IMG/VR virus record: IMGVR_UViG_3300033149_004993
Coordinates: 1 to 29,974 of that record
Origin: a virus
Length of the DNA: 29,974 nucleotides
Reading direction: 5' to 3' (one strand)
In this document: piece after piece, positions 2,952-17,583 of the stretch
Layout: each line of letters begins with the position of its first letter
Position numbering within the stretch: position 1 is the stretch's first letter
Program-made: the position numbers and the translations under genes
The notes under the pieces: model-generated
Seen by the model: only the letters and a program-made list of their open reading frames with translations
The model's database searches: none
Told to the model about the DNA's origin: nothing

Positions 2952-3995
2952 ATGAGTAAGATTCGTATTGTCAATTGGTTATTAACAAGAAGATGTAATT
3001 TAAATTGTGATTATTGTGCTATTGTAAAGGACTATACTATAAAGCCGCCAGGATATCCAGACATTTCCTATTATATTAAAAATGAAATGACAACAGATTA
3101 TATAATCAAGTGTTTAGATTTATTTAAAAAACATAACCCTGACCATTTTAATATCTTTTATGGTGGTGAACCATTATTGAGAAAAGATTTACCTGAAATT
3201 ATAAATTTCTGTAACGATAATAATATTTATTACACAATCATCAGCAACAACACAAAGCAAATTCAACCAGCAATAAAAAGACTTTTTAGGAATACAAAGT
3301 ATATTCAAGGTTTTACAAGTTCAGTAGATCCAATTTTCAATAATAAAAATAATTTTACTGATCGAGTAATAAAAAGCATTGAAGGTTTTAAACAGTTGGT
3401 TGAAATTAAAAAGCAAGGAAAAATTAAAGATGTTGTGGCTGAAATTACAGTTATGAAACACAACGTCAAATATTTATTTGATCTTGTTAAAAAATTAACT
3501 ACAGAAGGGATAAATAGTGATATAACATTTATTGATATTTCTAAGAATCCTTTCTATGACTTTTCAAACGTACATGATAAAAGTCAATTAGTAACAAAAG
3601 AAGAAGCAAAAGATCAAATTCAAATGCTTCTGGATAGTGATCTAAATATACATATGAAAGATCAATTGTTACCTAAAATATTTGACTCACTTCCATCTAA
3701 TATGGATTGTGAAATTGATAAAGGTCTTCATAATGTAACTATTGATGCAGATGGTTCAATTAGATTATGTCTTCGTGTAAGAGGACTAAAAAGTCCAACA
3801 ATACAAGCACATCAATTATTTGACAAGTCTGATATTAATCTTACATCTCCAATCGTTCAAAAAGTGATAAATAAGGATAAAAAAGACTTTTGTGAATTAT
3901 GTAATCATACATGCCAATTAATGAGCAAGATTATTGATAGTCAAAATCTTGATCCTAATGACCTAGTTCATAAGGATATAAGGGAGGGTAATTGA
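2952..3995 (+). CDS. Radical SAM enzyme with C-terminal Cys-rich (SPASM/twitch-like) region
   Basis: The 347-residue protein opens with the canonical RRCNLNCDYC: C15, C19 and C22 form the CX3CX2C motif that binds the SAM-cleaving 4Fe-4S cluster. The FYGGEPLL motif that contacts SAM follows. The C-terminal third holds several more cysteines (MDCEID, RLCLRV, then CELCNHTC), in the position where SPASM or twitch enzymes carry auxiliary clusters. Such enzymes often modify peptides or proteins, but the substrate cannot be read from the sequence. It overlaps the following gene as TGATG, and the NSSSTS-type protein lies immediately upstream. It is much longer than QueE, so 7-carboxy-7-deazaguanine synthase is a weaker alternative despite the folE2-like gene in the window. 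Confidence 0.85.
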   Translation: MSKIRIVNWLLTRRCNLNCDYCAIVKDYTIKPPGYPDISYYIKNEMTTDYIIKCLDLFKKHNPDHFNIFYGGEPLLRKDLPEIINFCNDNNIYYTIISNNTKQIQPAIKRLFRNTKYIQGFTSSVDPIFNNKNNFTDRVIKSIEGFKQLVEIKKQGKIKDVVAEITVMKHNVKYLFDLVKKLTTEGINSDITFIDISKNPFYDFSNVHDKSQLVTKEEAKDQIQMLLDSDLNIHMKDQLLPKIFDSLPSNMDCEIDKGLHNVTIDADGSIRLCLRVRGLKSPTIQAHQLFDKSDINLTSPIVQKVINKDKKDFCELCNHTCQLMSKIIDSQNLDPNDLVHKDIREGN

Positions 3996-4333
3996 TGCCT
4001 GACAAAAAGAAAAAAGATAATGTTGATTCTGATATTATTGTCTCAGCTGTCAAATTTTGGAAAAAGGTATTTGAGGAAAAAGATGTTGTTATAAAATTTG
4101 TTAAGAAAGATGGAACAGATCGTATAATGAGATGTACTTTAGATTTTACCAAAATACCAAATATAGATCATCCCAAAAGAGTCGATATTGAGAAAATCCT
4201 TAAACTTATTCAACAGAATAAAATTATGCACGTTTATGATTTAGAAAAAAAGGGATGGAGATCTGTACCTTTTGATAGAGTTGAATGGATGGATACAAAA
4301 ACAAGACGATACTATGTAAAGAAGAAGAGGTAG
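3995..4333 (+). CDS. SH3-beta-barrel-like phage protein
   Basis: 112 residues from ATG 3995, which shares a base with the TGA of the radical SAM gene. AGGGAGGG at 3981-3988 fixes this start over the TTG one codon upstream. The middle reads VVIKFVKKDGTDRIMRCTLD and the C-terminus contains VYDLEKKGWRSVPFDRVEW. This is the pattern I associate with the short phage SH3-barrel family (DUF2693-like): a strand-turn-strand around KKDGTxR and a final strand around W-R-S/F. Family assignment is from memory of the motif. Members are small and of unknown function. The basic N-terminus (PDKKKKD) and C-terminus (VKKKR) could favour nucleic acid or RNA polymerase contact, which is speculative. Confidence 0.7.
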   Translation: MPDKKKKDNVDSDIIVSAVKFWKKVFEEKDVVIKFVKKDGTDRIMRCTLDFTKIPNIDHPKRVDIEKILKLIQQNKIMHVYDLEKKGWRSVPFDRVEWMDTKTRRYYVKKKR

Positions 4334-4334
4334 A

Positions 4335-4688
4335 ATGACTTTATTAAAGCAACTATTAGGTGAGATCAAATCTGATAACAGACTTGATAAATTAAGGCAA
4401 TTATGTGATCAAATCATCAAGGAAGAAAACAAAAGCACACATAAACAACTTCCTAAAGGTCCAAATATTATTTTAGCATTAGAAGTACCCGGAAGAACAT
4501 CAAAAGAAATTGCATTTCTAACTTTAGAACGAGAAAGTGAAGATATTTACTTGTCAGTTCTATACACATTACCAATATTGGGGGATGACAAATTAAAGAA
4601 ACAACGAGTTTGGGAAATAAAAGATCACAGACCCGAAAAAATATTAAACAATTACTTAAAAGTTTATAAATACTTAAGAGGTGAATAA
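4335..4688 (+). CDS. Unknown 117-residue protein
   Basis: ATG 4335 follows the previous stop by one base, and the gene's TAA overlaps the ATG of the next gene. It therefore sits tightly in the operon that leads into the conjugation cassette. The N-terminal 35 residues look helical and charged (LLKQLLGEIKSDNRLDKLRQL). A small alpha/beta part follows, with IILALEVPGRTSKEIAFLTL and a helical end. I see no motif, signal peptide or membrane segment and do not recognise the family. Confidence 0.7.
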   Translation: MTLLKQLLGEIKSDNRLDKLRQLCDQIIKEENKSTHKQLPKGPNIILALEVPGRTSKEIAFLTLERESEDIYLSVLYTLPILGDDKLKKQRVWEIKDHRPEKILNNYLKVYKYLRGE

Positions 4689-7246
4689 TGAGTAAAGAAG
4701 TTCTTGAAATTAGAATTAATCCAGAATATTCACAATTAAACAGATCAATTTATGATAAGTCATTGAAAGAAGATTCAATTCCACAAATCAGACAAAAAAT
4801 AGTAACGACTGATCTTTATATGAAGAAAATAAACAATAAAATGAATACTACAACAACATTCATTCCAACAAATTGTCGTTATTTAGAAAAATTATCTGAT
4901 GGAAGCCATTTAGTTGTAACAGAAGAAGCACCAGCTATAAGAACAATTAAATTTGATTTTCCCTATGAAAAAGAACTTTATCAATTAGAAGAAGCTGGAA
5001 AATTAAAGGAATGGGGAATTTCACGAGATGAATATATAAAGAATAAACCTTCAAAACCCTATTCTTACAGACTTGCATTTCCTTATGTAGTTTTTATTCA
5101 AGCATTTGATAGAAATAATTATTTATATGCTGGACAGGTATTTTTTAGAGTTGCTAGACTTAGTGGATTTGCAGATTATCTTTTGAAAGCACCGCTTCTT
5201 AATATTTCTTCTGATCAATTCATTTGTTATGGAGAATTTAATAAAGAGAATAGGTCACTAGAGGCTGCTGTTCAGGATACTAGCTTAACATTTTGGTCAA
5301 CAAAATTTAATGATGATTATGTGTATAATTATCAATCTTATAGAAGCAAACCAATTTTTGGAAATTATATTGAGTGGGAATATTATACTGAGTTGAATCC
5401 AATGTTCATATATAGCGCTGATTGGATTAAAATAGATAAGAATATAGGTCAAATGATAGGTAAATTTAAAGAAAGATATAAACTCAATGGTAATAGAAGG
5501 TTCGGATTCAGCGATTTATCAAAACTATTTACATCACCATCAACAACATCAAAAGTAGAGAAGGTTACTAAAAACCATACAAAGGAATTATATTATGATG
5601 TTGCACAAGGTCTGTTCTTAACAAGGAATTTATTTATCAATGTTGGAGATTCTTTAACATTGAAAAATGGGAAACGTGCTTATATAAACTCATTTATTAG
5701 TTTTCTAGATGCATCTGATATAAAATATATTCAGTTGAAAGATGAAAATGGCAAGGAAATATTGCTGAAATATAACAATAGAGTTGCTAAGTTTCTTAAA
5801 GATGTATTTGAAAAAGAAAGAAATCAAAAAGAAGGTATGTTTGCTAATGGAAAGAAAGTTAAAGCTGGGGATATTGTAGCTATCAAACCAGTTAATGCTA
5901 TTAAGAAAACTAATGTGCCACCAATTTATAAGAAAGTTCAATATATAAGGAAAACTATAGATGGCATGACAGAAGCTAGACTAAATGATACTTTCTATAT
6001 CCTAGAAAATACCGTTGGTCAAGTTGTTGACTTAAATAAACCGATATACGGAGATATCAAGATATCTAAAGATAAAGAATATCTCTTAATATCATCAATT
6101 GATAAAACTTGCATTCATAGAGGAGCAGCTGTTAAATTTAATAACGTAACTGTAGATTCAAAAGGTTCATTAGTATTAAAGTTTATTGATCACAGTTCTA
6201 TTGGTAATGGTTATGAACACAATCTCAAAAGTAACTCTCAGTATAAAAGATTGGTTGAAATTCATAATACTAGAAAACTTCCAGATATATTTAAAGTCAA
6301 CAGAACATTAATGACAACTTATCCAAGAGGTTTAGCTTGGGGGTCAGAACATGGTTTAATTCTTCATGATAAGTGTGAGATACAAACTCCAAGAATAAAT
6401 TCTTTTGTAAAAAATTGTCTATTAGATAACAATACAAGACTTCACGTTGAAGGTGTCGACTCTGATATAGATTTTCAAATTGGAGATAAAGTTGTTTCTG
6501 CCGACTGGTTAAATCCAATAAATACTCTCATTATCAAAACTATTCAGGGATTTAAAGTTAATAAAGATACTGGAATTATTGATTTTGTCCTAGAAGATAA
6601 AAATGGAAAACTAACTATCACAAAATATATAGATATTACACATGGAATTATATTTGTTGGGAGAATAAGAAGGATTGTTAATGAATACGAAAAGGTTTTA
6701 GCTGGGACAAAAATCATTGCCGAAAAGGGTTATATTCCAAACTTCCCCAAGAAAGATACCAATATTATTATCGGTTTTATCACTGATACAGGGAGAGACG
6801 ATCCTCTAGTTCTTTGTTCTAACGGTTGTACTTTATGGTATAGTTTTATGATGAAGAACTTCAAGAGAGTAACAATGAAATCGAGTAAATGGAAAAACCT
6901 CCAACATGTTCCTCTTGATATAAGAAAAATCCCTTTTCAACCAGGCGATATTATTCAATATAAAGGTTTTGATGAGAATAGATCTGGTTGGGTAATTTAT
7001 TTGAATAACCACTCAACACAAAAAATAGTTAAAGCAGCATATTCCAGATATATTAGTACACATTCTTTAGATTCTTATATTAAGGATTCGTCATATTTTG
7101 ATTGTATCCCAAATCCAAGAATACCAAGAAAAGATATTAATCTTGAGAATTGTAGAAATGGATATACAAATTACCATGGTCACTTTATAGAAAATTCAAT
7201 CTCAAAATTTAGATTTATAGACGAAGGGAGTTTTTTGAATGTTTAA
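4688..7246 (+). CDS. E2-like domain (PRTRC-B/Prok-E2_D-like) fused to repeated SH3/KOW-like barrels
   Basis: 852 residues. Around residues 120-215 the protein reads YRLAFPYVVF, then KAPLLNISSDQFICYGEF, then FWSTKF. This P-x-L-N-x4-(D/G)-x-(I/V)-C-x-G pattern, with C180 as candidate active-site cysteine and an aromatic FW..xF after it, matches what I recall of the PRTRC protein B / prokaryotic E2 family D. From about 310 onward there are repeated short beta units with a GD/GK turn: VGDSLTLKNGKRA, KAGDIVAIKP, QIGDKVVSAD and QPGDIIQYKG. These suggest four to five SH3/KOW-type barrels. The gene overlaps the JAMM peptidase gene by 8 bases, which supports a shared pathway. The E2 call is an inference from motif and neighbourhood; a structural protein with tandem barrels is the alternative. 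Confidence 0.55.
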   Translation: MSKEVLEIRINPEYSQLNRSIYDKSLKEDSIPQIRQKIVTTDLYMKKINNKMNTTTTFIPTNCRYLEKLSDGSHLVVTEEAPAIRTIKFDFPYEKELYQLEEAGKLKEWGISRDEYIKNKPSKPYSYRLAFPYVVFIQAFDRNNYLYAGQVFFRVARLSGFADYLLKAPLLNISSDQFICYGEFNKENRSLEAAVQDTSLTFWSTKFNDDYVYNYQSYRSKPIFGNYIEWEYYTELNPMFIYSADWIKIDKNIGQMIGKFKERYKLNGNRRFGFSDLSKLFTSPSTTSKVEKVTKNHTKELYYDVAQGLFLTRNLFINVGDSLTLKNGKRAYINSFISFLDASDIKYIQLKDENGKEILLKYNNRVAKFLKDVFEKERNQKEGMFANGKKVKAGDIVAIKPVNAIKKTNVPPIYKKVQYIRKTIDGMTEARLNDTFYILENTVGQVVDLNKPIYGDIKISKDKEYLLISSIDKTCIHRGAAVKFNNVTVDSKGSLVLKFIDHSSIGNGYEHNLKSNSQYKRLVEIHNTRKLPDIFKVNRTLMTTYPRGLAWGSEHGLILHDKCEIQTPRINSFVKNCLLDNNTRLHVEGVDSDIDFQIGDKVVSADWLNPINTLIIKTIQGFKVNKDTGIIDFVLEDKNGKLTITKYIDITHGIIFVGRIRRIVNEYEKVLAGTKIIAEKGYIPNFPKKDTNIIIGFITDTGRDDPLVLCSNGCTLWYSFMMKNFKRVTMKSSKWKNLQHVPLDIRKIPFQPGDIIQYKGFDENRSGWVIYLNNHSTQKIVKAAYSRYISTHSLDSYIKDSSYFDCIPNPRIPRKDINLENCRNGYTNYHGHFIENSISKFRFIDEGSFLNV

Positions 7247-8807
7247 AATCCACATAAACGATGGAACAAATGAGTTACCTAAAGATGATATATTTTATAT
7301 CGTTGCAAAAGATGGAATATATCTTAAGAAAACATTAGGAGTAATGGACAGTATCGCACCAGTGAAAAATATTTCAACACTACAAGAAATTTCAACTGTA
7401 GCAAGAATGAATATCAAGAAAATTCCTGGTGGCCAATTTGCTAAAGTTATAGCTTTTTTTAAAGAAGTCTATAACAAATATAAATCAGAAGCTGTGGTGC
7501 TTTTATTCTATAATGAGAAAACGAAAGTTTATAAGATAGTTGTCCCACAACAAAAAGTTTCTGCTACATCTATTGAGTATGACCGAGGCATGATTCTAAA
7601 AGGTTATAATATGATTGGTACAATTCATAGCCATGCTGCCATGTCTGCTTTTCATTCTGGTACAGATCACGATGACGAAATATCATTTGATGGTCTTCAT
7701 ATAACAATTGGTAATATCAATACAGATTTTAGTATTTCAGCATCAATAATCTCTAATAAGAACAGATTTATGGTTGAACCTGAAGAATATATTAACAGAA
7801 TTACTAAAATAAAAGATGTTAATGAAAATATCACCAAACCAGTAAGAGTGGTATATAAATATTGTCACACTCAAAAGAAACTAGTTCCTGACGAAAAAGC
7901 ATCAGCCAGATTTGGGACTACAAGTTATACCAAACTGGATAAACGTTATCAAGTTAATGTTTCAGAACGAAATTTCAAAGTTTCAAAAGGTTGGATGGAT
8001 ATGGTTGAGCACATAACCTACTATAATAGACATTGGCAGAACCACTATCATAGAAATCAACATATGATTAACCATTCGTGGGGGGGTCATTATGATGCAT
8101 CCTTATGGGGCTATGGTTATAATTATAATAATCCAAATCTTGTAGGAAAAACAACTATGCCTGCAACTGTAGATGACAAAAAGGATAATGATGATATCCC
8201 CTGTCTAACTTGTAAGTTTAAAAAATATAAAATCCTTATTGAAGAAGATGAGGATGATACAATTGATTATTATGTCTGTAAGAAATGTGAAAGTATATGG
8301 GAAGAAGAAAATCTAATTGATGGAGAACAATGTCCCATTTGTATCACTGGAGATTTTCTAATTCCATATGAAGATCAAGATGGAGATCAAGAGAACGAAA
8401 AAGGTCTTAAAAATAACTATGTATTAGAGGATAAATATGATCACCTATTTGAAAAAGATACATCTATTCCTCTAACTCCTCCATCTGAATTTATTAGTTG
8501 TCCACATTGTAATGAGACTTTTCATATGTTCAACAGAGAAAGTAAATGTCCTTTTTGTCATAAATTACTAACTTCAAAAGTACAAGATACTGAATCAGAA
8601 CGAGAACAACAGTTGAGTAAAGACTCGGGTCAATTCTTGGGTGAAGATACGGAAGAAATAAATCTAATAGCCAAAGAGATTATACAGAAATCTAAAGAAA
8701 TCAATGTGGAAAAAATTCCTGATCCTAATGAAAACTCCACTCCCATTCAAGAGAATCAAAATATAATCCGAGGGATGTTTAGAAAAGTATTTGGAAGGAA
8801 ATGGTAA
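7239..8807 (+). CDS. JAB/JAMM metallopeptidase with five CxxC zinc pairs
   Basis: 522 residues. The N-terminal MPN domain carries a complete JAMM motif: E84 in the SEAVVLL strand, then H130-S-H132, seven residues, S140 and D143 (HSHAAMSAFHSGTD). Family knowledge: JAMM enzymes cut isopeptide or peptide bonds after a ubiquitin-like C-terminus. A low-complexity His/Asn/Tyr/Gly stretch follows at about 260-300. Then come five CxxC pairs at C322/325, C347/350, C365/368, C421/424 and C437/440; the last two pairs form a classic zinc ribbon. The end is acidic and probably disordered. ATG 7239 lies inside the end of the E2-like gene and the E1-like gene follows at once. Likely role: deconjugation or processing of the modifier encoded at 9510. 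No NlpC domain is present, so this is not the lambda tail type. Confidence 0.88.
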   Translation: MFKIHINDGTNELPKDDIFYIVAKDGIYLKKTLGVMDSIAPVKNISTLQEISTVARMNIKKIPGGQFAKVIAFFKEVYNKYKSEAVVLLFYNEKTKVYKIVVPQQKVSATSIEYDRGMILKGYNMIGTIHSHAAMSAFHSGTDHDDEISFDGLHITIGNINTDFSISASIISNKNRFMVEPEEYINRITKIKDVNENITKPVRVVYKYCHTQKKLVPDEKASARFGTTSYTKLDKRYQVNVSERNFKVSKGWMDMVEHITYYNRHWQNHYHRNQHMINHSWGGHYDASLWGYGYNYNNPNLVGKTTMPATVDDKKDNDDIPCLTCKFKKYKILIEEDEDDTIDYYVCKKCESIWEEENLIDGEQCPICITGDFLIPYEDQDGDQENEKGLKNNYVLEDKYDHLFEKDTSIPLTPPSEFISCPHCNETFHMFNRESKCPFCHKLLTSKVQDTESEREQQLSKDSGQFLGEDTEEINLIAKEIIQKSKEINVEKIPDPNENSTPIQENQNIIRGMFRKVFGRKW

Positions 8808-8808
8808 T

Positions 8809-9489
8809 ATGAAATTAGATATCGCTATAATTGGATTAGGCGGAGTCGGATCTATTCTATTGGGAAGACTCTCTAGATTCTTAAACTTTTCTAGAGATAT
8901 AGAGGCAAAAATCAATCTCATTGACGGAGATAATTATGAAGTAAAAAATTATGAACGACAAGAATTTGGTCAAATTGGAAACAAAGCAGATATTAAAGAG
9001 TTAGAATCAATAACAAGATATACTAATATCAAATTCGAGTCCTTTCCTGTCTTTATAAACGAAACAAACCTTAATGAAATGATTAAAGAAGACAGTATCG
9101 TATTTATGTGCGTAGATAACCATAAGACCAGAATGTTAGTATCCAATTACTGTAGAAATTTGAAAAATGTTACTTTAATTTCTGGTGGAAATGAATTTAC
9201 GGATGGAAATGTACAGATATATATAAGAAAAGATAGTAAGGATCTAACTCCTGATTTATGTAAATACCATCCGGAAATTGCAAATCCAGATGACAAATTA
9301 CCAGAGGAAATGTCTTGCGAGGAATTAGCACAATCCGATCCTCAACTATATTTTACTAATTTAGGTGTTGCAACATTAATGTGTTGGGCGTTTTATAACA
9401 CAGTTATAAAACAAGATTATGAACGTTCAGAAATCTATTTTGATATTCTATCAATGAATACCAATTCAAAAGTCAGAGTAGTAAACTAA
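8809..9489 (+). CDS. E1/ThiF-like adenylating enzyme (first copy)
   Basis: 226 residues from ATG 8809, chosen over TTG 8791 because GGAAGGA (8792-8798) is correctly spaced. The Rossmann loop is IIGLGGVGS near the N-terminus. LIDGDNYEVKNYERQEF follows, then the basic residue of GNKADIKEL and the CVDNHKTR segment. These are the ATP-binding and adenylation positions of the ThiF/MoeB/E1 fold. GGNEFTDGNVQIYI resembles the equivalent part of PRTRC-type ThiF proteins. Candidate thioester cysteines are in DLCKYHP and EEMSCEEL; neither is proven. The length is that of a bare ThiF domain without eukaryotic-style extra domains. It is expected to adenylate the C-terminus of the SAP-Ubl protein encoded 20 bases downstream. 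Confidence 0.88.
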   Translation: MKLDIAIIGLGGVGSILLGRLSRFLNFSRDIEAKINLIDGDNYEVKNYERQEFGQIGNKADIKELESITRYTNIKFESFPVFINETNLNEMIKEDSIVFMCVDNHKTRMLVSNYCRNLKNVTLISGGNEFTDGNVQIYIRKDSKDLTPDLCKYHPEIANPDDKLPEEMSCEELAQSDPQLYFTNLGVATLMCWAFYNTVIKQDYERSEIYFDILSMNTNSKVRVVN

Positions 9490-9509: not shown

Positions 9510-9986
9510 ATGGCACAAAAAAAGTTTACCAGAGAAGAACTCGATGCAAAACGTGTAGTTGATTTGAAAGAAATGTGTGTTTATGAACTGGATATTCCAG
9601 GGATGACCAAGAAAAGAAAAGAGGTGGTTATAGATGCTATTATGGCAAAATATGGAGAAGCCAGTACAGCAAAGACATCTGCTATCTCTACAAAAGCAGA
9701 ACCCATTAAGGGTGTTGAATTTTCTGGTCATAGTGTTCTATCAAAACCGGAAATGCCTTTCGGAAAAAGAACAAGTACCACCATTCAAGTTTCTTGTGGT
9801 GCTTCTTCTGGTAATTTTCCTGTTGCAGGTAGGTCAGTCAAGGAAGTTGGCGAATTTCTACGTGAAGTTCTAAACGTGGATCGTCTTTCGACAGGTCTAG
9901 TCAATGGTAAAGAAGTTGATCCAGATTATCTTCTAAAACCAGGCGACAACCTTGAATTCTTGAAACCAGCCGGTAGGAAAGGATAA
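9510..9986 (+). CDS. SAP-domain/ubiquitin-like (beta-grasp) fusion protein
   Basis: 158 residues. Residues 6-48 form a SAP-like helix-extension-helix (VVDLKEMCVYELDIPGMTKK...EVVIDAIMAKY), a fold that usually binds DNA. A Ser/Thr/Ala-rich linker runs to about 85. Residues 88-158 match a MoaD/ThiS/ubiquitin-type beta-grasp: TTIQVSCG strand, helix SVKEVGEFLREVL, then VNGKEVDPDYLLKPGD and NLEFLKPAGRKG at the C-terminus. The chain ends exactly in Gly, as needed for adenylation, although it is KG rather than GG. It has its own AAAGGAG site and a strong terminator directly after it, and looks less AT-rich than its neighbours, suggesting high expression. Likely the modifier of the cassette. A sulfur-carrier role is the main alternative. 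Confidence 0.8.
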   Translation: MAQKKFTREELDAKRVVDLKEMCVYELDIPGMTKKRKEVVIDAIMAKYGEASTAKTSAISTKAEPIKGVEFSGHSVLSKPEMPFGKRTSTTIQVSCGASSGNFPVAGRSVKEVGEFLREVLNVDRLSTGLVNGKEVDPDYLLKPGDNLEFLKPAGRKG

Positions 9987-10004
9987 AAACCTGAGGTTAA
10001 CCAG

Positions 10005-10037
10005 AAAGGGGGAATCTTAACAGATTCCCCTTTTTTT
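10005..10037 (+). terminator. Intrinsic terminator after the ubiquitin-like gene
   Basis: AAAGGGGGAATC (10005-10016) pairs with GATTCCCC and the following Ts (10023-10034) around a TTAACA loop. A run of seven Ts begins at 10031. This is a textbook rho-independent terminator. It probably sets the Ubl level apart from that of the second E1, the E2 and the RNA polymerase genes, which would need read-through or their own promoter. Confidence 0.9.
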
Positions 10038-10064: not shown

Positions 10065-10925
10065 GTGGTGTATAAGAATATAACTGTTATAGGACTCGGA
10101 ACCCTTGGAGGTTTCGTTGCTGATGCTGTTTCAAGTTTAGAAAGTACTGAGAAGATAATAATTATAGACCACGATGTAGTTGAGTCAAAGAATCTTAAAA
10201 ACTCAATATACAGACAAATTGATATTGGCTTGCCAAAAACTGAAGCACTTAAAGATATTTTACAATCGAAAAATCAAGATCTAGATATTGAAATTATGAC
10301 AGAAAAATTTCTTGAGCAGAAATCAGAAATTCCAGATAGTGATTTAATCTTAGACTGTAGAGATATAACATATGATCGAGGAACTAAAATTGATGCTCGT
10401 ATGTTTATTTCGTCTAGATATTTAATAGTTGATTGTCGTAAAAATGTCAATTACTCAAAACAAGTAGTTGGAAAATATATAGTCGAATTAAGCAAAGATG
10501 ATTTAAGATATGCTGCTTCAATTGTATCAATGGCAATTCATAGTGGAACATTTAAGTCTTTGTTAAAAAACAAATCAGTGCAAAAATATGAACTAGATTA
10601 TGTAAAGCATATTGACAATTACGAATGTGATATTGTATATGAAAATTTAGTTGGAGAAAATAAATTTATTAACCTTCCAGACAAAATTGTTCCTATAATT
10701 GACATGAACAAATCAAAAGATATAAATGTCTTTTTAGGAAGTAAAGTATTACCAATCACTGAAAGATTGATTCCAAAGAATACATTACAGAACAGCGGAG
10801 ATTTAATTTCAAATTTAATATCTGTCGCTACAAGCGAATGTGATTTTAACCATTTTATTATCTCATTATTTCAAGAAAACAACCAAGTTTTTATTGAATT
10901 AATACCAGAAACGGGAGCAGCTTAA
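10065..10925 (+). CDS. E1/ThiF-like protein (second, divergent copy)
   Basis: 286 residues from GTG 10065 (GTG 10068 is also possible); AAAGGG at 10053-10058 supports either. The ATG at 10063 is out of frame. The N-terminal half is a Rossmann domain: VIGLGTLGG, IIIDHDVVESKNLKNS, then YRQIDIGLPKTEALKDIL, which keeps the Arg-Gln and Lys expected in ThiF/MoeB adenylation domains. DLILDCRD follows. The C-terminal half (from about 150) is unlike the first copy and has no clear catalytic CxxC; scattered Cys occur in NYECDI and SECDFN. Its TAA shares a base with the ATG of the E2-like gene, so the two are likely translated together as an E1-E2 pair. It may activate the same modifier, a different one, or act as a non-catalytic partner. 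Confidence 0.75.
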   Translation: MVYKNITVIGLGTLGGFVADAVSSLESTEKIIIIDHDVVESKNLKNSIYRQIDIGLPKTEALKDILQSKNQDLDIEIMTEKFLEQKSEIPDSDLILDCRDITYDRGTKIDARMFISSRYLIVDCRKNVNYSKQVVGKYIVELSKDDLRYAASIVSMAIHSGTFKSLLKNKSVQKYELDYVKHIDNYECDIVYENLVGENKFINLPDKIVPIIDMNKSKDINVFLGSKVLPITERLIPKNTLQNSGDLISNLISVATSECDFNHFIISLFQENNQVFIELIPETGAA

Positions 10926-11263
10926 TGTTAGTAAAAAATACATTTGTTCCCGGTGTTTTTGTCCCATATAAATTAATTTTTAAAAATGAACTTTACAATA
11001 TTATAGATTTAGAAAAAAAATTTATAATTAGAGGATATACGATCCAGACTGTAGATAAACAAATTGATATGGTTTTTATAAAGAATCCACATCCAAATGC
11101 AAATCCAAAGACTGGTGAATTTTGTATCCCCAACTCATTAAGAGAACATACTATTTGTACAAGTAGTAAAAATATCTTAGAATTAATGTTATGTTGCTTT
11201 AATTTAGACGATTGTTATTTTACTCCTTGGGACGAAATAAAATATAAAAGACAAGAGGTGTGA
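10925..11263 (+). CDS. Compact E2-like conjugating enzyme with HPN...C motif
   Basis: 112 residues. The core reads NPHPNANPKTGEFCIPN: H56-P57-N58, eight residues, then C67. This is nearly the spacing of the ubiquitin E2 signature, where HPN is followed after about seven residues by the active cysteine. The strands before it (FIIRGYTIQTVDKQIDMVFI) and the helix after it (NILELMLCCF) also fit a minimal E2/UBC core, with FTPWD near the end. It is shorter than eukaryotic E2s, lacking much of the C-terminal helices. It overlaps the second E1 gene by one base (TAATG). No other E2 with HPN is present in the window. The assignment is from motif plus context. Confidence 0.65.
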   Translation: MLVKNTFVPGVFVPYKLIFKNELYNIIDLEKKFIIRGYTIQTVDKQIDMVFIKNPHPNANPKTGEFCIPNSLREHTICTSSKNILELMLCCFNLDDCYFTPWDEIKYKRQEV

Positions 11264-14592: not shown

Positions 14593-17583
14593 TTGAATAT
14601 AATTAATCCTACATTTAAAATTCAAGATGAAGATTTTAATATCTTCACAATAAGGAAAAAAGATTATGAACAGATTTTACCTTTAGTTGAAGAAATAGTT
14701 AAGCCAGTAGAGGAAATTGGATTTGAAATTATTGAAGTAAATTTAAAAGACTCTCGTTTTTCATCAAGAGAGTTATCAAAAACAATTAAACAAACTTTGG
14801 TTATTAAATTAAGGAAAGGGAATTCAAATATCGACTTGAGCATTTTTATTCCAAAGTTGATAGATGATAATTATGTTGTAATAAATGGGAGAAAAAAAAT
14901 TCCATTATTTCAACTATTTGATATACCTATCGTAACCAGAGGTGAGAGTATAAAAATTAGAACAAATGTAGCTACAGTAATGGTTTATAAAGATCGAGAA
15001 GAACCAGCTATAAAAGTAAGTTTTCTTGGTAAAAAAGTTCCACTGTCTCTGATCTTATGCGCATATTACAGTATGGAAGATGTTAAGAAATTGTTTGATA
15101 TTGATCTTCCTATTGATGAAAATTCCGAAGATTTATATGAGTTATTAAGGAAGGATATAAAATTTCATCTTGATGAGTCTGAAGGCTATACGCAAGACGA
15201 TTTTATCATTGAGCTTGGTAGAATCTACTCCAAATATAATGCCAAATCAAAGGGTGAAGATATTTTATATGCAATTGATTTGATTCCAAAGGTTGATCTT
15301 TTAACCACTAAATTCTTTCATACTGATTCTTTATTAAATGAAATTATATATGCAATCAAAACAGTAAATATTGATGACACATTATTTACAAATAAAAGAG
15401 TCAGATGTTTTGAATATATGATATTATCAAAGATTTCAAAGATCATATTTGATTTATGTTTTGCTAACAGAACAGCCAGACAACCAAAATTTAATATTAA
15501 CTCAACTCAAATATTATCAGAATGTAATGTATCAGAAATAGTCCAGTTCAATTTCTCTATTAATCCTGTTGAAGAGTTGACAAAGTTATCACGAATTAGT
15601 TTATTAGGACCTGGAGGTTTCAAAAGAGAAAATATTCCAAAACATTTAAGAGATATTTGTCCAACAATGTTTGGAAGAATTTGTCCAGTGGATACTCCAG
15701 ATAGAGATAACTGTGGAGTATTACAGAATCTAGTACCAAATGTTAACTTAAGTGATGATTTAAGATTTACTAATGAAATCTGTGATAAACAGCCAATCTC
15801 AATACCTGTTTCACTAACTCCATTTTTAAAGCATGACGATCAAACCAGATTACAGATGGCTTCATCTCAAATGAGACAATCAATAATGCTGAAAGATTTT
15901 GATCCACCGTTAATAGGTTCCGGTTGTGAAAATCTATATACAGATTTTACCCAGTTTGTTAAAAGAGCAAAACATTCTGGTAAAGTGGTGTATATTGATG
16001 ACGATTATATTATCGTAATGTATGATAATGGTAAACCAGACATTTTTGATATTTCATATCGAAAAATTTATGTTGAGCATTTAGACTTTATGAATCTATA
16101 TGTTAAAACGGGAGATAAATTTAAATCTGGAGATATTTTAGCAGAAAGTAATTTCTGTAAAAATGGTCATATCAACATTGGAAAAAATCTTTTAGTAGGT
16201 GTTATGGTTTATTACGGAAATAATTATGAGGATGGTGTCGTTATTTCTGATAGATTAGTAAACAAAGATATATTTACATCTGTGCATTACAGAGATTTGT
16301 CATTTATGCTATCTCCAGATAAAGTTCTTTTATCTTTAGATGAAAAAGAGTATAAACCATTACCAAATAACTTAGAAACAATTAAAGCAGGGAACCCTTA
16401 TGCAATCATTAAAAAATTGACTTCAAAAGAATTGTACTCACCATTTTCTGAAGATGTTGTTCTCGAAGCGAAAAAGAGTTTCATTATATCTGAAGTAAAT
16501 TTATATGCAAATGACTGGAATACTGAGATTCCAGAGTTTCGAGATTGGGTAAAGGAGTGTTTAGATAAACAAAGAGATAAACAAAAATATTTACAAAAAG
16601 TAGTGGTAGATATTTTTGGTAAAGATGAAGGAACAAAGGTCATTCGAGAAAGAAGTATGGATAAATTTTCAGTTGATAAAAAATATAAACTGAAACGTGA
16701 AAAAATAAACGGAATCTTTGTTGAAATGTATGGAGTTCATTTTAGAAAGATAAGAGTTGGAGATAAAATTGCTAATAGGCATGGTAATAAAGGAGTAATT
16801 TCACAGATTGTTCCACACAAAAAAATGCCACAATTAGAAGATGGAAGACATTTAGATATTTGTATTAACCCATTAGGAATAATTTCTAGAATGAATATTG
16901 GTCAGCTCTATGAAATGCATCTATCAATGTCTATACAAGATCTAAAAAATAATATAGTTATAATGTTAAGTGAAAATAAACCACAAGATGAAATTAAAAA
17001 ATATTTACTTGATTATATTAATATCATTGACAAGACAATTGATAACTGGTATTATAAACAATTCGTTGAGCAAATTCCTGAAGTAATAACTGAAGATTTT
17101 ATAAAAGATCTTACTATAATACAACCTCCGTTCGAATCTTGTAGGTTAGATGAGGTTAAGAAAGCTCTTGAGTACACCAATACAAAATTTGAGCAAAAAA
17201 TTTATGATCCTCTATCAGAAACTCATCTTGCAAACAAAATTGCTACAGGATTTATTTATTTTTTCAGAATGGTTCATATTGCAGAAGAAAAATTAGCTGC
17301 TAGAGGTATTGGTGCATATGCTAGACGAACATTACAGCCGCTTGGTGGAAGAAAGAATAAAGGCGGTCAAAGATGTGGAGAAATGGAAACTGCATGTTTA
17401 ATCGGTCATGATGCACCACATAATTTATTTGAGTTTCTAACTACAAAATCAGATTGTATTGATTTGAAAAATAATTATATTAGAAATCTTATTGAACCAA
17501 TGTTCAGTGATGAATTATGCGATATAGTTCCAGAATCAGTTAAGTTATTAAAATCATATCTAACTGTAATAGGAGTTGATTAA
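14593..17583 (+). CDS. Phage DNA-directed RNA polymerase, beta-like subunit
   Basis: 996 residues, starting at TTG 14593 because GGGAGGAAG (14578-14586) lies at the right distance. Conserved beta blocks are in order. GPGGFKRENIPKHLRD begins near residue 339 and is followed by PTMFGRICPVDTPDRDN. Next is NYEDGVVISDRL. Then RHGNKGVISQIVP around H730, with NPLGIISRMNIGQ. The C-terminal clamp block includes RMVHIAEEKLAARGIGAY, LQPLGGRKNKGGQRCGEME from residue 914, and LTTKSD. It is shorter than E. coli beta (about 1340) mainly by lacking lineage inserts. Unlike cellular operons, beta lies downstream of beta'. The stop overlaps the ATG of the next gene. Likely role: the second large subunit of the phage polymerase. 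Confidence 0.95.
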   Translation: MNIINPTFKIQDEDFNIFTIRKKDYEQILPLVEEIVKPVEEIGFEIIEVNLKDSRFSSRELSKTIKQTLVIKLRKGNSNIDLSIFIPKLIDDNYVVINGRKKIPLFQLFDIPIVTRGESIKIRTNVATVMVYKDREEPAIKVSFLGKKVPLSLILCAYYSMEDVKKLFDIDLPIDENSEDLYELLRKDIKFHLDESEGYTQDDFIIELGRIYSKYNAKSKGEDILYAIDLIPKVDLLTTKFFHTDSLLNEIIYAIKTVNIDDTLFTNKRVRCFEYMILSKISKIIFDLCFANRTARQPKFNINSTQILSECNVSEIVQFNFSINPVEELTKLSRISLLGPGGFKRENIPKHLRDICPTMFGRICPVDTPDRDNCGVLQNLVPNVNLSDDLRFTNEICDKQPISIPVSLTPFLKHDDQTRLQMASSQMRQSIMLKDFDPPLIGSGCENLYTDFTQFVKRAKHSGKVVYIDDDYIIVMYDNGKPDIFDISYRKIYVEHLDFMNLYVKTGDKFKSGDILAESNFCKNGHINIGKNLLVGVMVYYGNNYEDGVVISDRLVNKDIFTSVHYRDLSFMLSPDKVLLSLDEKEYKPLPNNLETIKAGNPYAIIKKLTSKELYSPFSEDVVLEAKKSFIISEVNLYANDWNTEIPEFRDWVKECLDKQRDKQKYLQKVVVDIFGKDEGTKVIRERSMDKFSVDKKYKLKREKINGIFVEMYGVHFRKIRVGDKIANRHGNKGVISQIVPHKKMPQLEDGRHLDICINPLGIISRMNIGQLYEMHLSMSIQDLKNNIVIMLSENKPQDEIKKYLLDYINIIDKTIDNWYYKQFVEQIPEVITEDFIKDLTIIQPPFESCRLDEVKKALEYTNTKFEQKIYDPLSETHLANKIATGFIYFFRMVHIAEEKLAARGIGAYARRTLQPLGGRKNKGGQRCGEMETACLIGHDAPHNLFEFLTTKSDCIDLKNNYIRNLIEPMFSDELCDIVPESVKLLKSYLTVIGVD

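Follow-up and report, generated by a model that had tools for sequence, protein, structure and literature searches.

The modifier gene and its product

This locus raises the question of whether a phage can encode a ubiquitin-like (Ubl) modifier that carries a nucleic-acid-type domain of its own, together with the enzymes that would attach and remove it. The window, that is, the whole stretch of DNA analysed, comprises 29,974 bases and is the virus record of a tailed phage that encodes the beta' and beta subunits of an RNA polymerase of its own. The gene under study and its parts are as follows.

9510 to 9986, plus strand: Rho_N-Ubl modifier gene, ATG start, 158 aa, C-terminus AGRKG
9525 to 9662, plus strand: Rho_N-type head, residues 6-51, assigned from Pfam and Rho structures, with the basic loop GMTKKRK
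9663 to 9767, plus strand: linker, residues 52-86, pLDDT below 50 at 52-79
9768 to 9983, plus strand: Ubl domain with a beta-grasp, residues 87-158, last residues KPAGRKG

A Shine-Dalgarno-like AAAGGAG was found about 11 nt 5' of the modifier ATG as the ribosome-binding site. After the first two scans, the modifier gene was present in 28 viral loci from environmental viruses. In 12 close pairs, purifying selection acted on both the head (dN/dS 0.10-0.49) and the Ubl domain (dN/dS 0.04-0.17), and the linker was the fastest-evolving part of the protein in most of the pairs. Because relatives exist at many loci and both folded halves are under purifying selection, 9510-9986 is a real gene.

The AlphaFold model of the modifier has helices at 8-13, 16-26 and 37-48, followed by a disordered linker and then a beta-grasp with a strand at 90-96, a helix at 110-121 and strands at 129-131 and 148-150. 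The mean pLDDT was only 67.5, with both halves fair and the linker low. The first-pass annotation had proposed a helical head, a flexible linker and a beta-grasp in this order, and the model and the fold matches of each half (a Rho-like head and a MoaD/TGS/ubiquitin-like tail) agree with it. The search for homologues of the same order also returned relatives. Among 50,697 named phage records, no direct relative of the Ubl was matched, the PHROGs search returned no match for the Ubl or for the HPN-type E2 described below, and the BFVD fold search gave only weak matches, several of which were Rho_N proteins.

The head belongs to the Rho_N type

The helix pair at residues 6-48 had been read as SAP-like. 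The fold type of that reading stood, since Rho_N and SAP both have the SAP-like helix-extension-helix fold, but the family did not. The Pfam Rho_N profile (PF07498) matched 23 of 26 relatives (best 1.1e-8), and L097 (49.6 bits) and L123 (34.1 bits) scored over the Pfam cut-off of 24.9 bits. The SAP profile (PF02037) matched one of the 26 relatives, at 0.086, and did not match the window protein. Two odd relatives gave better SAP scores (L068, 3.8e-6; L097, 3.4e-4), and the SAP cut-off was passed solely in the double copy L068 (26.8 vs 23.9 bits). SAP was therefore rejected as the family of the head, because Rho_N matches better and in more relatives. In VIA-align, Rho N-terminal structures were the top matches on residues 6-51 of the predicted model (Z 6.2, 45 residues, 1.5 A). 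The window protein alone scored 14.6-17.7 bits against Rho_N, under the cut-off, with 0.0036 for residues 1-57, and this weak score would be expected if the similarity were incidental, the head being a generic three-helix segment and the Ubl half alone of importance. We find this hardly credible, given the number of matching relatives, several of them over the cut-off, the independent fold match and the purifying selection seen in this segment.

Nucleic acids are frequently contacted by folds of the Rho_N, SAP and LEM types. K34 and K37 of the head loop were invariant in 26 sequences, the loop pattern GxxKxxK was basic in 58 of 58, and we take this loop to resemble the RMRK loop of Rho. Two heads were present in the relatives L070, L077, L097 and L123. 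From these features, we consider it probable that the head is a nucleic-acid binder. Its main competitor is a reading in which the conjugation pathway is unchanged and the Rho_N head serves to dock a protein, for example the phage polymerase, host Rho or the E2_D protein described below. The head carries little net charge (median +2, range -3 to +7), Rho has its main RNA site in an OB fold distinct from its N-terminal helical domain, and the head occurs together with the second E1-like protein, the HPN-type E2 and the polymerase, all of which would suit docking. It is less easily reconciled with the invariably basic, RMRK-like loop, with the frequent nucleic-acid contacts of such folds and with the double heads, and we regard docking as possible but doubtful. 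The first-pass annotation had proposed that the modifier, if conjugated, would tether its target to DNA; such tethering could equally well be to RNA or to a protein.

In one subclade, a further ORF of Rho_N type lies upstream of the cassette (L023:4048-4485, L024:4034-4474 and L058:3414-3776); it has a long acidic tail but no Ubl.

The Ubl domain, its C-terminus and tandem copies

The TGS profile matched the Ubl half in 25 of 26 members and ThiS in 18 of 26, each match being sub-threshold singly, and VIA-align placed MoaD, TGS and ubiquitin structures on residues of about 87-157 at a Z of about 5. No direct Pfam match linked the Ubl to Prok_Ub; end-to-end comparison with Prok_Ub-type repeats in hhalign gave an E of 1.7e-4 as a single comparison, with a probability of 49%.

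G155, K157 and G158 were invariant in 26 sequences, the end being AG[RK]KG, so that the terminal Gly is kept in the homologues. The C-terminus is thus -KG and not -GG. Trypsin would cut after K157, and the remnant on a lysine would therefore be a single Gly instead of the GRKG-type remnant first suggested. Among the head-bearing Ubls, nearly all of which have KG either at the very end or before a tail, 39 end in KG and 15 in KGC, and single members add R, DRKGC, YK, VILTK or LL after KG (the tail pattern used for this count missed L081 and L123, which also have KG ends; L110 is degenerate and L113 is cut off). We regard the C-terminus as a putative processing site, and the variable tails after KG fit what would be expected if tails are removed. 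In L068:7989-8948, the arrangement is Rho_N-Ubl-Rho_N-Ubl, head to tail, with the junction KPAGRKG intact. Such tandem Ubls resemble polyubiquitin genes and would fit cutting by a JAMM peptidase.

Several other arrangements were seen. In L107:8586-9215, the Ubl (ending AGDKG) is followed by a 67-residue basic extension; a NUMOD-type domain was considered for this extension and rejected, as no Pfam family matched. Gp199 of the cultured Bacillus phage vB_BauM_KLEB27-3 (L147:718-1425), annotated as hypothetical, consists of four head-to-tail Prok_Ub domains (Pfam 5e-27), each repeat ending in AGVKG, with a short tail added, and it adjoins E2_D, JAB and ThiF genes. In Vibrio phage D69 (L146:4262-5053), three Ubl-like repeats end in TGTKG, with E2_D-like, JAB and ThiF genes nearby. 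In Alicyclobacillus plasmid p1 (L149:3916-4857), a Ubl-like segment is apparently fused ahead of a JAB domain.

The genes around the modifier

The order of the conserved block is Prok-E2_D protein, JAMM, E1a, Ubl, E1b, UBC-like E2 and polymerase beta'/beta, and these parts, their motifs, their order and their synteny can be read directly from the DNA. The neighbours of the modifier are as follows.

4688 to 7246, plus strand: Prok-E2_D/PRTRC_B-like protein, 852 aa, domain at about 163-219, C180 invariant
7239 to 8807, plus strand: JAMM (JAB) metallopeptidase, HSHx7SxxD, predicted Ubl processing/deconjugating enzyme
8809 to 9489, plus strand: E1a, ThiF-family activating enzyme, Pfam ThiF 1.5e-17
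10065 to 10925, plus strand: E1b, second ThiF-like protein, Pfam ThiF 1.4e-15
10925 to 11263, plus strand: UBC-like E2, 112 aa, HPN(56-58)-x8-C67
11674 to 14379, plus strand: phage RNA polymerase beta', context and candidate target
14593 to 17583, plus strand: phage RNA polymerase beta, context

The E2_D protein matched Pfam PF14460 at 5.1e-4 (below the cut-off) and PRTRC_B at 0.027, and its C180 was conserved in 100% of an aligned set of 85; the same domain adjoins JAB and ThiF genes in named phages. The JAMM protein matched NCBIfam PRTRC_A at 2.3e-12 (below the equivalog cut-off) and Prok-JAB at 5.8e-5, and 82 of 84 relatives keep its motif. In the window, its C-terminal residues 322-460 (8200-8640) carry zinc ribbons that weakly resemble transcription factor S and fingers of the RING type, whereas the JAB protein of many relatives is shorter, at about 300-400 aa.

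E1a has the invariant residues R50, K59 and D103 and the candidate catalytic C170 (numbered from the ATG at 8809; C176 in the other alignment numbering). It matched PRTRC_ThiF at 9.7e-9, with ThiF/MoeB models scoring equally well. E1b retains the nucleotide-binding residues and loop, R50 is present in 37%, and the catalytic Cys is not conserved. An active E1a with a degenerate E1b recalls the paired halves of eukaryotic E1, as an analogy that does not imply kinship. The C-terminus of E1b, ETG[AG]A, is strongly conserved (GAA in 42 and GGA in 11 of 62 sequences, the window and 61 relatives), which is unusual for a ThiF protein, and this end may serve for docking or mark the protein for degradation. 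It also suggested that E1b might end in a Ubl-like domain, but this was rejected, since profile comparison with the cassette Ubls gave a probability of about 1% at most.

In the 112-aa E2, HPN plus Cys was the sole invariant motif (21 sequences). The strict HPN..C was found in 53 of 58 E2s, and the remaining five have a longer insert or HVN. The E2 model had a pLDDT of 94.4 and all 50 PDB matches listed were of E2 type, the best fold scores among the matches listed being modest (Z 5.1; Foldseek E 0.1). The UQ_con profile matched one of the 21 E2 sequences. The polymerase beta' gene lies 3' of the cassette at 63 unique loci.

Upstream, at 2952-4688 of the window, lie a radical SAM gene (55 of 89 loci), a WYL_2-like gene (55 of 89) and a 117-aa orphan (47 of 89), and a presumably FolE2-like gene lies in the same region. 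Viperin was rejected as the identity of the radical SAM protein: its scores (pVip 4e-14, viperin 1e-12) were far under the NCBIfam cut-off, and NirJ/MoaA-type models score as well.

Sulfur-carrier systems likewise employ a Ubl, an E1 and a JAMM protein, and the strongest rival on the pathway is that this Ubl is a sulfur carrier (cf. CysO/Mec+ and QbsE/QbsD), which is thiocarboxylated by E1 and recycled by JAMM, the sulfur going to the modification of a small molecule or a nucleic acid. The nearest single folds and profiles are ThiS, MoaD and TGS, 15 relatives end in KGC, and the radical SAM and FolE2-like genes would suit such chemistry. However, the cassette also conserves two proteins of E2 type whose cysteines are invariant, the tandem Ubls and the retained nucleic-acid-type head would have no obvious role, and no sulfurtransferase was recognised within the conserved block. 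We thus consider a sulfur carrier unlikely.

Signals of a high dose

One more feature stands between the modifier and E1b.

10003 to 10036, plus strand: terminator-like hairpin, 15-bp stem, directly 3' of the Ubl gene

Its folding energy was -21.3 kcal/mol (z -3.57). A strong fold, defined as -12 kcal/mol or better over 60 nt past the stop, followed the Ubl gene in 54 of 58 relatives, and the same test past the E1a, JAB, E2 and beta' stops was positive in 3, 7, 2 and 5 of 58, respectively. A terminator scanner run on the plus strand did not call this hairpin, which was found by folding; the scanner probably missed it because the A-T pairs of the hairpin use up the T-run. The GC content of the Ubl gene exceeded that of its own locus in 62 of 62 cases (0.43 vs 0.31), and its GC3 was 0.34 against 0.19-0.26 in the neighbour genes. 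A strong terminator of its own and a composition less AT-rich than the neighbours had both been noted for this gene from the window alone, and both were borne out. The high dose deduced from them is predicted, and comparison supports it well because the hairpin and the GC bias are conserved among relatives.

A high dose would also suit a decoy, in which an abundant phage Ubl saturates the host antiviral systems (Bil, CBASS Cap2/Cap3 and Bub), and PADLOC E1-E2 models do score on the ThiF domains of the cassette. However, these matches span only the common ThiF domain, for which reason the cassette was also rejected as a known defence system. An own E1, E2 and JAMM with conserved active sites would be needless for a decoy, and the cassette is kept together with the polymerase genes. 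A decoy is thus very unlikely.

Distribution of the cassette

Profile scans of viral and genome contigs gave 89 loci with distinct E1a sequences, and co-occurrence was counted in the 86 unique loci whose downstream flank spans 4.5 kb or more. The head, E1b, the HPN-E2 and the polymerase were all present in 58 of these loci and all absent in 20, the other 8 being intermediate or incomplete; the cassette is conserved in about 60 related phages. The 20 loci came from environmental virus contigs and from the genomes of uncultured bacteria, NC10 and Patescibacteria-type members among them. All of them have E1a, nearly all JAB and most E2_D; their Ubl is short and headless, or no Ubl was recognised. 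A single change on the E1a tree accounts for the head, and the branch that separates the two groups has an SH-aLRT of 98. Because of this single change, we consider that the elaboration of a PRTRC-like core happened once, in phages of a lineage with its own polymerase. This is one evolutionary event, and co-occurrence by itself therefore does not suffice to identify the polymerase as the target.

Comparison with known systems

The PRTRC or class 6d operons, for which Iyer, Burroughs and Aravind (2006) predicted Ubl transfer through an E1-E2 relay (PMC1779556), also combine, in a single gene cluster on a mobile element, an E2_D-type protein (PRTRC_B), a JAMM protein (PRTRC_A JAB), an E1 of ThiF type (PRTRC ThiF) and a short Ubl (PRTRC_C/Prok_Ub) with an -xKG end. 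The phage cassette goes beyond them in the Rho_N head, the second E1-like protein, the HPN-E2 and the linkage to RNA polymerase. The E2 of class 6d is without the classical histidine (PMC1779556), whereas the phage cassette has an additional HPN-E2; no ParB-like member was seen in it. Judged by its gene content, the cassette is a phage-specific elaboration of the Ubl system of PRTRC type, and its modifier probably binds nucleic acid. KLEB27-3 (gp194-gp199) and D69 have related JAB, ThiF, E2_D and Ubl genes, the Ubl ending in -KG, and no Rho_N head, second E1 or HPN-E2 was seen in them.

Bil and Bub are bacterial antiphage Ubl systems with E1, E2 and JAMM chemistry. In type II CBASS, Cap2/Cap3 bring the same chemistry into a phage-bacterium setting (PMC10097602). 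These three are host defences, whereas the present cassette is phage-borne and built from different gene families. The tail-assembly proteins TAPI-TAPK of Lambda and T1 are a phage-encoded Ubl and JAB peptidase (PMC1779556); they differ from the cassette in belonging to the tail genes, without E1 or E2, and in location and architecture.

The first-pass annotation knew of no other modifier of this build. This calls for a qualification, since one eukaryotic gene, SDE2, unites a DNA-binding SAP domain with a ubiquitin fold (PMC5131917). SDE2 also has a Gly processing site, and differs in that the order is reversed, its Ubl being N-terminal and cleaved off at GG, the SAP fragment being the effector, so that it is no conjugated modifier. 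The open-access literature that we searched contained no account of a phage Ubl with a Rho_N or SAP domain; a prior mention elsewhere is possible.

Proposed pathway and its meaning

In this study, we believe that the cassette encodes a reversible conjugation pathway with a head-bearing modifier and a target that is likely in the transcription apparatus, to which we give a probability of about 0.6. Owing to the hairpin behind its gene, the Ubl would be produced in larger amounts than the enzymes encoded downstream. The JAMM peptidase would trim the C-terminal extension or cut tandem copies, exposing ...AG[RK]KG. E1a would adenylate the terminal Gly and may hold the Ubl on C170, with E1b as a probably non-catalytic partner, and the HPN-Cys E2, the E2_D protein or both would pass the Ubl to a lysine on the target. 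The JAMM peptidase would also reverse the conjugation. Because the head stays on the modifier, the tagged protein would gain a handle for binding RNA, DNA or a transcription complex. The likeliest target would be the phage or host transcription apparatus, because the polymerase genes directly follow. The adenylation, conjugation, transfer, nucleic-acid binding and target are inferred. The conserved active sites (JAMM, the R/K/D/Cys of E1a, the HPN..C of E2 and C180 of E2_D) and the tandem Ubls with intact KG-type junctions back the conjugation reading. We counted against this reading the -KG end, the modest fold scores of the E2, whose assignment partly rests on the HPN-Cys motif, the middling pLDDT of the modifier, the head charge of about +2, the confinement of the head and polymerase linkage to one clade, and the fact that no E3 was identified for the pathway.

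A fuller form of this proposal is that the phage has a complete reversible pathway with two E1-like proteins, two E2s and a JAMM protein, and that the bifunctional modifier is itself the effector instead of a signal for other proteins to read, its Ubl half being joined to lysines and its Rho_N half docking targets on nucleic acid, with the RNA polymerase perhaps recruited to RNA or DNA in the course of infection. We hold this form tentatively, at somewhat short of even odds.

Known Ubl modifiers act chiefly through recognition by other proteins. If our reading is true, this modifier has a nucleic-acid-type domain of its own, and conjugation would directly move a protein onto RNA or DNA. The set of E1, E2 and deconjugase is carried by the phage instead of the host and is syntenic with the phage RNA polymerase. 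The pair of active and degenerate E1, the HPN-type E2 and the polyubiquitin-like precursors, one of which sits in a cultured phage, would be prokaryotic counterparts of eukaryotic features.
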